NCBI GenBank assembly: GCA_015099395.1
Contig: AP024096.1
Span: 7,853,485-7,917,484, forward strand
Direction: 5' to 3'
DNA length: 64,000 bases
DNA from: Ktedonobacteria bacterium brp13
GTDB taxonomy: Bacteria; Chloroflexota; Ktedonobacteria; Ktedonobacterales; Ktedonobacteraceae
Shown: positions 6,300 through 61,012 of the stretch, one piece after another
How the letters are laid out: each line of letters begins with the position of its first letter
How positions within the stretch are numbered: the stretch's first letter is position 1
Program-made: the position numbers and the translations under genes
The notes under the pieces: model-generated
What the model saw: only the letters and a program-made list of their open reading frames with translations
Databases searched by the model: none
What the model was told of the DNA's origin: nothing

Positions 6300-6412
6300 G
6301 GCAGCTCGGTTGATATCTGTCTTATTGTTGACATCTCTGGTAAGTGCTGTGTATACTTCCCTTTGGAAATAGTACGGCATAGTGTGTATTTCTACTATTT
6401 TTATTTTTTCGT

Positions 6413-6591
6413 GTCAGGTGGTCAAAACAGATCGTTTTGACAGAATAGGGAAGCCGGTGTAAATCCGGCGCAGTCGCGCTACTGTAACTGGTGTAATTGT
6501 TTATCCTTGTGATGGTCACTGTTTTTATAAGGAATGGGAAGACCAGGATAAGCGCTCTTATAGCCGCCAGAAGCCAGGAGACCTGCCTGAC
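6413..6591 (+). promoter_or_regulatory. Cobalamin (AdoCbl) riboswitch aptamer
   Basis: The closing stem pairs GTCAGG (6413-6418) with CCTGAC (6586-6591). The core carries the conserved GGGAAGCCGGTG...AAATCCGG...ACTGTAA series (6448-6486). The B12 box AGCCAGGAGACCTGCC is at 6572-6587. It precedes btuF by about 155 bases, so it should turn down btuF-cobO when cobalamin is plentiful. It lies downstream of cobU and does not control the first three cob genes. Confidence 0.96.
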
Positions 6592-6675
6592 ATATTCCAT
6601 GCTCATGCTTCCTTCGCGTTAAAGGAATGAGAGATTCCCGAGGCTAACTAGCGTATCGTTGCGCATTCTCCGGTT

Positions 6676-11750: not shown

Positions 11751-11831
11751 GCTTGCTTACTACGTATCCGAAAACTTGCGTGTGCGAGCACTAGCGACGC
11801 CAGTCGCGTTGGTGTTCGGAATAAGATCTTA
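11751..11831 (-). repeat. 81-bp palindromic intergenic repeat, copy 1 (after accA)
   Basis: This copy is about 76/81 identical to the reverse complement of 60932-61012. Read from accA it begins with the gene's own stop codon: TAAGATCTTATTCCGAA. The ends are near-inverted repeats (CTTATTCCGAA against TTCGGATAAG-like), with an inner GCGAC/GTCGC stem. It has the size and shape of a MITE/REP-like mobile palindromic unit. No transposase is nearby. Confidence 0.85.
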
Positions 11832-12815
11832 GCTATTTGAAGGCATGGGTATTCGGGACTTTACTGTCCCAAATGGACCTATCTTCCGGAATTTTTGATA
11901 GCGAAGCTCCAGCATCTCCTCGACCGGCAACCGTTTAAGCTCGGTGAGATTGTGCTGTAAAGCATCTTTGAGTGTATTCGCCGCCTCTGAATAGTTCCGG
12001 TGTGCGCCGCCCAATGGTTCGGGTAATATTTCGTCTACCAGTCCCATCGGCAACAGATCTCTGGCGCGAATGCGCATAGCTTCCGCTGCCAGAGATGCAA
12101 AGGCTGCATCGTGCCACAGAATAGATGCTGCCGCCTCCGGCGCTGCCACCGTATAAATACTATGTTCGAGCATGACAATACGGTCGGCGACACCAATGGC
12201 TAGCGCGCCGCCACTACCGCCTTCGCCAATAATAGCAGCGACGATGGGAACACGTAAACGAGACATTAAATGAAGAAGGGACGCGATCGCTTCTGACTGT
12301 CCACGCTCCTCATCCACGAGGGCAGGGGATGCACCTGCGGCATCTATCAGACTGACGACAGGAATACCAAACTTCTCTGCTTGTAGCATCGCACGAGAGG
12401 CTTTGCGATATCCTTCGGGATGTGGCATGCCCAGATTTCGAAACTGCCTCTCTTTACTATCACGGCCCTTCTGATGACAGATGAGCATCACTGTCTGCCC
12501 GTTTATCTGCGCCATGCCAGCTACAATTGCATGATCATCGCCAAAGGTACGATCCCCATGGAGCTCAAAGAAATCATCGCACATCAGGCGAATGTAGTCC
12601 TCTGAATATGGACGGTCTTTATGGCGCGCGACTTGAGTCGTCTCCCAACGAGAGAGATTATGATAGATAGCCTCTGTCTGCTGGCGTAGTTCCTGTTCAG
12701 CCTCTTGCAGCTGAAGCAGCTCGTCATCCTTCAGGCGCTCACCTTTACGTTGTAACGCAGTGATTTTTTTGTCTAAATCAGCCAGTGATTTCTCAAACTC
12801 CAGATCGTAGGCCAT
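11829..12815 (-). CDS. accA: Acetyl-CoA carboxylase carboxyltransferase, alpha subunit
   Basis: A 328-residue alpha subunit of the bacterial carboxyltransferase, which with AccD transfers CO2 from carboxybiotin to acetyl-CoA to make malonyl-CoA. It has the N-terminal helical region (L-D-K-K-I-T-A-L-Q), R-P-Y-S-E-D-Y-I and F-x-E-L-H-G-D-R. The crotonase-like core carries G-E-G-G-S-G-G-A-L-A-I and A-A-P-E-A-A-A-S-I-L-W-H-D-A. The usual I-D-T-P-G-A-Y-P-G loop is changed to I-D-A-A-G-A-S-P-A before D-E-E-R-G-Q-S-E-A-I-A. It lies 108 bases downstream of accD on the same strand. Its stop codon lies inside the palindromic repeat. Confidence 0.95.
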   Translation of the reverse strand: MAYDLEFEKSLADLDKKITALQRKGERLKDDELLQLQEAEQELRQQTEAIYHNLSRWETTQVARHKDRPYSEDYIRLMCDDFFELHGDRTFGDDHAIVAGMAQINGQTVMLICHQKGRDSKERQFRNLGMPHPEGYRKASRAMLQAEKFGIPVVSLIDAAGASPALVDEERGQSEAIASLLHLMSRLRVPIVAAIIGEGGSGGALAIGVADRIVMLEHSIYTVAAPEAAASILWHDAAFASLAAEAMRIRARDLLPMGLVDEILPEPLGGAHRNYSEAANTLKDALQHNLTELKRLPVEEMLELRYQKFRKIGPFGTVKSRIPMPSNS

Positions 12816-56213: not shown

Positions 56214-56374
56214 CCTGGCAACAGCAGGTTTTATTCTTACAAAGCAAGGACGGATAGAAGAGCTGAAAACTCATATTCTATTCGTCTAGCTTTGGTCCAT
56301 TTGTTATGATCTTATTGCAAAAACCAATGCTACTGACTTGGATACGCAGTATGAGCTTCATGGAGGATACAGTA

Positions 56375-57244
56375 ATGGTACAGGCAAAGATTGGTGTGAT
56401 CGGTGGTAGTGGTCTTTATAATATGGAGGGAATGACGGATACCGTTGAGGTTGCCATTGAGACCCCCTTTGGTCGTCCTAGCGATGTGATTACCGTCGGC
56501 AATGTTGACGGGGTGCCGATGGCTTTCTTGCCGCGTCATGGTCGCGGTCATCGTTATAGTCCTTCTGAGGTGCCTGCTCGTGCCAATATCTGGGCGCTGA
56601 AGAGCCTGGGAGTCGAATGGATTATCAGTGTGAGTGCGGTCGGTAGCTTGCGTGAGGATGTTGCTCCTCGCGACTTGCTGATCCCTGATCAGATCTTCGA
56701 TCGTACCAAAAGCCGTGTCAATAGCTTCTATGAGGGCGGCCTTGTAGTACACTGCTCATTTGCTGATCCCTATTGTTCAACGTTACGTGGATTGATCTTA
56801 GCCGCGGGTCAGGACTTGACCGATGTCAAAGTCCATGATGGTGGTACCTATGCTTGTATGGAGGGGCCGCTCTTCTCAACGAAGGCCGAATCAAATGTCA
56901 ATCGCAAACTGGGTATGGACGTTATCGGAATGACGGCGTTACCCGAGGCGAAGCTGGCGCGTGAGGCTGAGATCTGCTATGCAACGATTGCCTGTATCAC
57001 CGATTATGACTGCTGGCGTGAAGAGGCTGTCACCGTCGATATGGTGATTGCGAATTTGAGTGCCAATGTTGCGAATGCACAACGTATTCTACGTAGTCTG
57101 GCGCACTCCTTGCCAGCTGACCGAACGCATCAGCATTGTGGATGTGCCAGCGCATTGGACCATGCGATCATGACCGATCCCGCGCTGATTACCGATGAAC
57201 TGAAAGAGCGCTATCAATTACTAATTGGTCGCTATATCTCTTGA
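56375..57244 (+). CDS. mtnP: S-methyl-5'-thioadenosine phosphorylase
   Basis: A 289-residue purine nucleoside phosphorylase-type enzyme that splits methylthioadenosine into adenine and methylthioribose 1-phosphate in methionine salvage. Motifs are I-G-V-I-G-G-S-G-L-Y, F-L-P-R-H-G-R-G-H (phosphate site), S-A-V-G-S-L-R-E-D, and C-M-E-G-P-L-F-S-T-K-A-E-S with G-M-T-A-L-P-E-A-K-L-A-R-E. ATG 56375 has GGAGG 8 bases upstream. Its stop codon overlaps the -35 of the SRP RNA promoter. Confidence 0.95.
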   Translation: MVQAKIGVIGGSGLYNMEGMTDTVEVAIETPFGRPSDVITVGNVDGVPMAFLPRHGRGHRYSPSEVPARANIWALKSLGVEWIISVSAVGSLREDVAPRDLLIPDQIFDRTKSRVNSFYEGGLVVHCSFADPYCSTLRGLILAAGQDLTDVKVHDGGTYACMEGPLFSTKAESNVNRKLGMDVIGMTALPEAKLAREAEICYATIACITDYDCWREEAVTVDMVIANLSANVANAQRILRSLAHSLPADRTHQHCGCASALDHAIMTDPALITDELKERYQLLIGRYIS

Positions 57245-57330: not shown

Positions 57331-57495
57331 ACCGATTTTTATTCGGTCCTGTCGATTGGCGTAACCGGGTCTTGAGCGGCAGATGTTTGTGAACCCCGCC
57401 AGGACCGTGAGGAAGCAACGGTAAATGGACCTCTCTGGGTGACTCAGGGTCGCCTGGTTACGCTAATCGGCAGGACCGAGCGAAAATCGGTTTTT
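57331..57495 (+). ncRNA. ffs: Signal recognition particle RNA (small bacterial type) with terminator
   Basis: The apical S-domain motif is present: CCAGGACC-GTGA-GGAAGCAACGG near 57399-57422, matching the conserved Ffh-binding loop and tetraloop of SRP RNA. A long rod is closed by ACCGATTTT/AAAATCGGT (57331-57339 with 57483-57491), then CGGTCCTG/CAGGACCG and GGCGTAACC/GGTTACGC. The end GGTTTTT acts as an intrinsic terminator. The RNA joins Ffh and meets the FtsY receptor encoded at 14 kb. The 5' hairpin at 57274-57330 may be a transcribed leader removed by processing. Confidence 0.92.
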
Positions 57496-60322: not shown

Positions 60323-60934
60323 ATGAGTGATATTGCAGCTCCGGTGGCAGCGCTGGTGGAAGAGCTTTCCAAGCTGCCAGGTGTCGGTGTGAAGACCGCA
60401 CAGCGCCTGACTTTCTATATTTTGCGTAGTCCCAATGACCAGGCTCGTCGTCTGGCTGAGGCGATTCTGCGTCTCAAAGAGAGCATCATCTACTGCTCAC
60501 GTTGCTACAATATTACAGAGACCGATCCTTGTTCTATCTGTAGCAATCCAGGTCGCGACCAGGAGACTATCTGCGTCGTTGAGGAGCCACTCGATGTGCT
60601 GGCTCTGGAGAAGACCGGAGCGTACAAAGGGCTGTATCACGTGCTCCACGGCGCGCTCTCGCCGCTTAACGGCATTGGGCGTAAAGATATTCGTATCGAC
60701 GAACTCTTCAAGCGTCTGGCCGATGGAAAGGTACATGAGGTCATTCTCGCCACGAATCCCGGCTTTGAAGGCGATTATACCGCTGGTGTCATCAAGGATG
60801 GCATTAAAAGCGAGCTCGCAGTTCCACAGTTGCGTGTGACTACGTTAGCGCGTGGCCTTCCGTTAGGTGGCGACCTCGAATACGCCGATGAAGGTACACT
60901 GAGTCGTGCCATCGAGGGACGACGCGACCTCTAA
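60323..60934 (+). CDS. recR: Recombination mediator protein RecR
   Basis: A 203-residue RecR acting with RecF/RecO in loading RecA at gaps. It has the helix-hairpin-helix L-P-G-V-G-V-K-T-A-Q-R-L, a zinc finger C-S-R-C...C-S-I-C, and a TOPRIM domain (I-C-V-V-E-E-P-L-D-V-L-A-L-E). The segment Y-H-V-L-H-G-A-L-S-P-L-N-G-I-G follows. The end E-G-R-R-D-L is the normal RecR C-terminus, immediately followed by the TAA that belongs to the 81-bp repeat. No insertion damage is seen in the protein. Confidence 0.97.
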   Translation: MSDIAAPVAALVEELSKLPGVGVKTAQRLTFYILRSPNDQARRLAEAILRLKESIIYCSRCYNITETDPCSICSNPGRDQETICVVEEPLDVLALEKTGAYKGLYHVLHGALSPLNGIGRKDIRIDELFKRLADGKVHEVILATNPGFEGDYTAGVIKDGIKSELAVPQLRVTTLARGLPLGGDLEYADEGTLSRAIEGRRDL

Positions 60935-61012
60935 GATCTTATTCCGAAACCCAACGCGACTGGCGTCGCTAGTGCTCGCACACGCAGGTTTTCGGATAAG
61001 TAGTAAGCCAGC
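60932..61012 (+). repeat. 81-bp palindromic intergenic repeat, copy 2 (after recR)
   Basis: The same unit as 11751-11831 in reverse orientation, with about five differences. It begins with the recR stop codon (TAAGATCTTATTCCGAA) and ends TTTTCGGATAAGTAGTAAGC. Relative to the host gene the orientation is the same as at accA. A terminator-like GGGAATG/CATTCCC hairpin (61023-61047) follows. Confidence 0.85.

Follow-up and report, generated by a model that had tools for sequence, protein, structure and literature searches.

The window analysed here is a 64,000-nt stretch of the genome of Ktedonobacteria bacterium brp13 (hereafter brp13; contig AP024096.1), in which the accA and recR genes are each followed by a copy of the same short repeat (Table 1). 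A first-pass annotation had reported that 11751–11831 (minus strand) and 60932–61012 (plus strand) agree at 76 of 81 positions and that both copies start at the TAA of the upstream ORF in the same orientation relative to the gene. Both statements are confirmed, and an independent repeat search of the window returns the pair as 83 nt at 94%. While the repeat is real, the proposed 81-bp unit has to be shortened to 75 bp (i.e. a TAA, a 69-bp body and a second TAA), and the last 6 bp belong to the host flank. Similarly, the TAA does coincide with the host stop codon, as had been claimed, but it is the duplicated target and is not brought by the element. A segmental duplication of the two genes is rejected because the flanks of the two window copies differ. 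The ORF called at 56306–57244 takes its ATG from the TATG of a probable third copy, and this start may therefore be mis-called. Ordinary RNAs identified in the window by Rfam are a cobalamin riboswitch and a small SRP RNA (6399–6604 and 57363–57462).

Table 1. Copies of the repeat and their host genes in the window
Feature	Position	Strand	Basis
Element copy 1 with both TAA duplications, 75 bp	11757–11831	-	Covariance-model match 82.1 bits, E 4.7e-22; ends from 106 copies
69-bp body, copy 1	11760–11828	-	
TAA, accA stop and left target duplication	11829–11831	-	ORF 11829–12815, minus
TAA, right target duplication, copy 1	11757–11759	-	Ends from copy alignment
accA, acetyl-CoA carboxylase carboxyltransferase, host of copy 1	11829–12815	-	AccA PF03255, E 2.9e-127
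Element copy 2 with both TAA duplications, 75 bp	60932–61006	+	Covariance-model match 90.8 bits, E 9.8e-25
69-bp body, copy 2	60935–61003	+	
TAA, recR stop and left target duplication	60932–60934	+	ORF 60323–60934, plus
TAA, right target duplication, copy 2	61004–61006	+	Ends from copy alignment
recR, host of copy 2	60323–60934	+	PF21175 RecR_C, 24/24 profile positions; three congener orthologues stop at the same codon
Probable degenerate, shortened third copy, TATGATCTTATT...GGATACGCAGTAT, apparent TAT/TAT duplication	56305–56352	+	Covariance-model match 19.9 bits, E 0.0048

The brp13 genome is a single contig of 8.88 Mb. The genome-wide search that the first-pass annotation had proposed finds at least 163 copies by a 22-base core (up to 3 mismatches), and thus more than the two in the window, against none for a reversed-pattern control; a chance pair is rejected on the same counts. 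The stretches that we examined contain 112 copies, of which 106 are usable and six were dropped with one end missing. This sample is biased toward exact cores and top scores; of 100 places listed by position, 94 are included, and 28 of these 94 lie at a stop codon. In aligned copies, the body is mostly 68–70 bp long (69 bp in both window copies), reads GATCTTATTCCGAA...TTCGGATAAGTAG and has a TAA on either side. Pairwise identity among the 106 copies averages 93%. They represent 65 distinct bodies, the most frequent of which is found 13 times, and are mixed in strand along the genome (49 plus, 57 minus).

We also inspected the distribution of the element in other genomes. Of 47 genomes searched across the class, 16 (brp13 included), all in the Ktedonobacteraceae, have matches to the covariance model and 31 have none, 18 of the latter lying outside this family; up to 103 candidates per genome were scored under stricter filters, which makes large counts lower bounds and may lose weak matches. 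Four congeners in the genus of the window yield 0, 1, 3 and 1 matches by the same model. The brp13 copies share a mean identity of 80% with 98 Ktedonobacter copies, compared to 93% and 91% within the two lineages, so that the element family seems to have been amplified separately in each lineage. Phages, plasmids and viral contigs gave no match to one copy by blastn or to one exact pattern.

Two empty sites in Ktedonobacter reveal how the element arrives. At one of them, Ktedonobacter sp. SOSP1-85 (L386) carries TCA, the 69 bp and TCA again, where Ktedonobacter robiniae (L208) has a single TCA, and the flanks are 98.6% identical across 1.5 kb on each side. At the other, K. robiniae (L033) carries the 69 bp between two TAA triplets, where K. 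racemifer (L203) has a single TAA; the same site is also filled in SOSP1-85 (L340), with one extra T next to the left TAA. Flank pieces at this second site are 96.9–98.6% identical (97.0–98.2% between L033 and L203), and the two sides further show a length difference ∼600 bp away. Comparison of filled and empty forms by script over all loci examined returned seven rows, three of which represent these two sites; the other four are one poor alignment (75%), one filled form compared with another and two cases of a tandem pair matching itself. The gain of exactly 69 bp together with a 3-bp duplication at two empty-site junctions indicates that the repeat is a mobile element, which inserts precisely and duplicates a 3-bp target.

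The flanking triplets of many more copies agree with this. In Ktedonobacter, the 3-bp flanks are identical at 70 of 123 distinct sites, where shuffles give a mean of 33.5; duplications other than TAA (i.e. TAT, TTA, TTC, TAG, TAC, ACA, TTT and TCA) occur at 22, where the shuffled mean is 3.0, and none of 20,000 shuffles is as high. These 123 sites derive from 181 left ends after omission of 47 repeat sightings, eight ends near the start of a stretch, two without a right end and one near the end of a stretch. The 53 sites of the 123 without identical triplets count against the interpretation that we favour below, and imply that erosion, a shift or wrongly placed boundaries affect some copies. 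In brp13, identical triplets flank 92 of 106 copies (86.2 in shuffles) and TAT/TAT occurs three times (0.16 in shuffles), with P = 0.00015 for each. The preferred target in brp13 is C-TAA-G, with C before the left triplet in 80 and G after the right triplet in 63 of the 106 copies, whereas TAA or TAT predominates in Ktedonobacter. Tandem brp13 copies (∼6,233,830–6,234,050) have one TAA in common between them, which is what insertion of the element into its own flank would produce. Diverged family members likewise occur head to tail in two other genomes (G014, loci L268/L279; G005, locus L277).

The 69-bp body folds into a three-way junction, with support from covariation. We compiled an alignment of 55 rows (19 brp13 and 36 Ktedonobacter copies, from 65 and 53 distinct bodies), in which the named structure pairs 93.1% of cells. 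Double-sided cells number 55 against 20.2 and the covariation score is 0.160 against 0.071, values that none of 500 shuffles reached. Two of the five covariation measures are unremarkable: double-change pairs number 5 against 3.5, a value matched or exceeded in 33 of 500 shuffles, and for additional pair types the figures are 10 against 9.4 and 244 of 500. RNAalifold alone recovers the outer and the second helix but uses a different register for the first hairpin; its covariation term is small (−0.64), and 2 of 13 pairs have double changes. A second alignment combines copies of the same type with diverged copies of other genomes (32 matches, 30 distinct); being fitted to the structure model, it has double-sided changes in 13 of 16 pairs, 100 such cells against 29.0 in shuffles and 94.7% of cells paired, compared to 27–41% for slid versions of the structure. 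Several genomes have a re-sequenced outer stem (e.g. CCGATCACC/GGTGATCGG in G009), and the junction bases CAACG, CTA and TCAGG are mostly unchanged across genomes. Compensatory changes have thus kept the three-way fold. Such covariation means that selection kept the fold while the sequence was replaced, and the kept fold points to a putative fold-reading transposition enzyme in Ktedonobacteria. Folded singly, six sequences give z-scores between −3.3 and −0.3; the weakest is that of window copy 1 (z = −0.32, no better than shuffles), and copy 2 is only moderate (z = −2.06). Since copies occur in every orientation relative to genes, we infer a role of the fold in mobility more than in a host RNA function. 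Some Ktedonobacter copies contain a small extra hairpin (CCCCCATTCGGGG type) in the loop of the second hairpin. Between species, it is present or absent at matching insertion sites (L209 and L232; L197 and L218; L181 and L203), which could represent either a smaller nested insert or a loss.

We then analysed the position of the element relative to genes, which the first-pass annotation had described as targeting of gene 3′ ends. A strong and orientation-specific association with stop codons does exist: the left TAA closes an ORF of at least 100 aa in 36 of the 106 brp13 copies, against three and one in the other two frames and 2, 3 and 2 on the right side, and the contrast between frames is similar for ORF cut-offs from 60 to 200 aa. 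The description is too broad in that 59 of the 95 copies with a left TAA lie off the stop codons of ORFs of at least 100 aa; 15 of these 59 are inside predicted ORFs. The other 36 of the 95 sit on an in-frame TAA stop, compared to 9.2 expected from stop and intergenic TAA sites whose neighbouring bases are identical (558 kb of brp13, elements masked), a ∼4-fold excess (P = 2e-13) in which genes are ORFs of at least 100 aa rather than annotated genes and part of the reference stretches overlap one another. With broader target matrices derived from the non-stop copies, the expected number falls to 5.9–7.9 of 95, and an artefact of target context is therefore rejected as the sole cause of the excess (36 seen, 5.9–9.2 expected). 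In Ktedonobacter, the raw counts for the three left frames are 15, 2 and 3 of 123, and the copies at stops comprise 12 of 67 at TAA, two of three at TAG and one of 53 at other triplets. The stop preference is thus weaker there than in brp13, which counts against our favoured interpretation.

Ten brp13 stop sites were compared in detail, i.e. those of AccA, RecR, RNase III, superoxide dismutase, FtsH (M41), nuoJ (NADH dehydrogenase chain 6), nuoE (2Fe-2S thioredoxin-like subunit), an Mrp-type ATPase, BacA and an ABC ATPase. Several of the Pfam matches run to the last profile position, and names beyond the Pfam names are our own assignments. A search in the four congeners gave 41 matches, of which 30 loci were compared, with aligned orthologues for nine of the ten sites; accA, with a weak match alone, was left out. 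The gene stops at the same codon in 21 of the 30 loci, one codon later in four and two codons later in one; two NuoE relatives end ∼9 codons earlier than in brp13, and two loci (L295 and L313) have unrelated or paralogous tails that are uninformative for the native stop. The element is absent from all 30 loci, where the model finds 0 matches in 94 kb at E up to 1. The idea that insertions create new stops and truncate genes is rejected by these two counts, 21 of 30 and 0 of 30. Where the duplicated target is the gene's own TAA, the stop is restored exactly and the protein is unchanged. At one brp13 locus (L121, ∼5,581,700), a copy separates the nuoJ stop from the start of the gene that follows; the corresponding interval in three congeners is ∼230–330 bp without the element.

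A full-length element that contains a transposase and has the same ends, for which the first-pass annotation had suggested a search, was not found with exact-end patterns in up to six genomes; these patterns combine the ends with a non-element base further in, and would miss a parent whose ends differ or diverge only beyond the core. Pfam matches in brp13 comprise 50 for DDE_Tnp_1, three for Y1_Tnp and none for DDE_Tnp_4. No element ends are present near 49 of the 50 DDE_Tnp_1 places (30 + 19, with ∼1.5 kb of flank; 6,949,503 was omitted), no element occurs in the loci of the three Y1_Tnp matches of brp13, and DDE_Tnp_4 revealed no autonomous partner in 12 genomes. End motifs and the covariance model likewise gave no autonomous partner in transposase loci: among 51 such loci, the element is present in L156 alone, at the edge of the locus and as a short copy of the ordinary kind. 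Neither an alignment of 33 transposase loci with one another and with other brp13 loci nor the recurrent neighbour ORFs of 184 element sites (106 in brp13, 78 in Ktedonobacter) yielded a partner; by eye, the two largest neighbour clusters resemble ABC ATPases and response regulators, and the others are ORFs that run through the element. Three left ends have no right end nearby (L240, L243 and L253). L240 and L243 have none in the locus, and L253 is rejected as a longer element since the motifs there that resemble ends fall within an unrelated 170-aa ORF. Candidates for the enzyme are plentiful, with 601 transposase genes reported for K. racemifer (PMC3236041).

Taken together, it is highly probable that the repeat is a 69-bp non-autonomous mobile element which is spread in trans by a putative enzyme, duplicates a 3-bp target and restores the stop codon where that target is a stop TAA. 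On balance, we regard it as a new, non-autonomous repeat of MITE/REP-like character that is mobilized in trans, with a folded strand as the probable substrate. Against this interpretation stand the failure of the above searches to yield an autonomous relative or linked transposase, the two unremarkable covariation measures, the other register in RNAalifold and the weak or moderate folding of the window copies. The putative enzyme would act in trans on the 69-bp element and insert it into a 3-bp target, which would be duplicated (mostly C-TAA-G in brp13, mostly TAA or TAT in Ktedonobacter). At a gene's own TAA, such an insertion would restore the stop, leave the protein the same and place the element between the stop and the following sequence. 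The folded strand, either DNA or RNA, would be the substrate, so that the fold would be needed for mobility; the enrichment at stops would reflect an insertion preference, and not the harmlessness of such insertions alone. This suggests a simple route to high copy number without harm to the host, with the stop codon both used as the target and duplicated. A more specific version, in which an enzyme reads the element by the shape of its folded strand, duplicates 3 bp and is directed to stops (e.g. via translation termination or transcript 3′ ends), is rather unlikely in all its parts; if it were true, each such insertion would be silent for the host.

Two alternatives compete with single steps of this interpretation. 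The excess at stops could be a matter of survival only, the element inserting at any C-TAA-G, with coding insertions lost and those at stops harmless. This is compatible with mobility, competes with the targeting step only and has, in our view, somewhat less than an even chance. An insertion at a native TAA indeed leaves the protein unchanged, and BOX repeats offer a parallel, with the stop codon inside the repeat in 36 of 58 overlapping CDSs (PMC3049150). Against it, the excess at stops remains ∼4-fold over intergenic TAA in a matched base context, and the copies do not avoid promoter-side intergenic sites: divergent sites make up 16 of the 59 non-stop copies, or 16 of the 43 that have two known neighbours and no spanning ORF, compared to 17% of all intergenic reference sites, or ∼26% with both neighbours known. 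Among the non-stop copies, moreover, the left gene points toward the element in 22 cases and away from it in 34, and this absence of both a sense preference and an avoidance of divergent sites makes it hard to account for the excess at exact stops by tolerance alone. Some intergenic sites may nevertheless be under selection that is invisible to the present analysis. The other alternative is an ordinary MITE, i.e. an internal-deletion derivative of a DDE insertion sequence that is read by its subterminal inverted repeats (CTTATTCCGAA / TTCGGATAAG), with the fold as a by-product and the parent lost or too diverged. It overlaps with our preferred interpretation, from which it differs in the folded-strand step, and we regard it as plausible but doubtful. 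The 3-bp duplications, the TAA/TTA/TAT targets and the imperfect inverted ends would all fit. Some IS5-group insertion sequences make 3-bp TNA duplications, which would also fit. PIF/Harbinger elements are likewise described as making 3-bp duplications (PMC2213677). Recognition of the ends alone would not predict, however, that the outer stem is almost wholly re-sequenced yet still paired and that both inner hairpins co-vary in other genera; the searches for an insertion sequence with the same ends, reported above, also speak against it.

Two further explanations are considerably less probable. That the element is of the REP/RAYT type, moved as a single-stranded hairpin by a Y1 tyrosine (HUH) transposase, is very unlikely. 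High copy number, folding and the 3′ tetranucleotides GTAG, GAAG and GGAG recall REP and its GTAG (PMC2817692, Table 1), but known IS200/IS605 elements are described in the same source as making no larger target duplications, and the clear 3-bp duplications and empty sites largely refute this explanation. In addition, the tetranucleotide lies 3′ rather than 5′ of the fold, the strands are mixed, and the three Y1_Tnp matches of brp13 are the only ones there. Slightly less probable again is a host-selected 3′-UTR RNA element, i.e. an mRNA stabilizer or terminator kept at gene ends for its usefulness. Its position directly after stop codons and its covarying fold would suit such a role, but non-stop copies are not in excess behind genes in the sense direction, divergent intergenic sites are not avoided and congeners lack the element at the same genes. 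The terminator function proposed in the first-pass annotation is not borne out either: in the two window copies, there are weak hits only, on the strand opposite the gene, and no T-run on the gene strand. A separate hairpin comes after the element at both window sites, and three recR orthologues without the element have a similar hairpin soon after the stop.

We finally compared the element with known repeat systems. Integron attC sites are recognized by their fold more than by their sequence and often lie behind the stop codon of a gene. The element resembles them in both respects, if it is read by its fold, and differs in its dispersed copies, its 3-bp duplication and, by eye, the absence of consistent RYYYAAC/GTTRRRY boxes. 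The label of a MITE or REP-type element in the first-pass annotation holds in that this is a high-copy, MITE- or REP-like mobile repeat, but the definitions of both MITEs and REP/RAYT fail at tested features, and we therefore assign it to neither. With MITEs (e.g. Correia and RUP; PMC2817692), it shares its short length, lack of autonomy, target duplication and empty sites. Its inverted-repeat ends are comparable in part, in that CTTATTCCGAA / TTCGGATAAG pair subterminally while the outer triplets GAT and TAG do not match. It differs in that it is not AT-rich, a trait that PMC3049150 gives for MITEs (GC of 0.47–0.51 in the typical copies scored), exact-end searches in up to six genomes found no autonomous insertion sequence with the same ends, and its interior fold covaries. 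With REP and RAYT, it shares high copy number, folding, the absence of a gene inside and a recurring GTAG-like tetranucleotide (PMC2817692); it differs in its target duplications, its three-way fold in place of a single hairpin or palindrome, the 3′ side of its tetranucleotide, and the absence of a linked transposase gene flanked by the repeat at the three Y1_Tnp loci of brp13. BOX of Streptococcus pneumoniae also comprises small, structured, dispersed repeats that carry host stop codons, and the stop association itself therefore has a precedent; the source describes the truncation of those CDSs as without strong evidence (PMC3049150). According to that description, BOX is built of modules (boxA/B/C) and may reach lengths above 500 bp, unlike the fixed 69-bp body that lies exactly on the stop via a 3-bp duplication. 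The earlier statement that no described family matches the element agrees with our searches: Rfam has no match on it at the gathering threshold and nothing relevant at the E-value threshold, and no description was found in the titles and abstract openings of the open-access literature, a body of sources that does not include ISfinder.

Two other repeats were observed in the course of these comparisons. A 55-bp variant (L138/L239; brp13, ∼1,115,309) has the same ends as the element and another interior that resembles a single hairpin. Another dispersed repeat is ∼270 bp long, begins CCCTCTTTGAGGGGGGATGT and is ∼80% identical among its copies (L152, 2698–2963; L093; L100).
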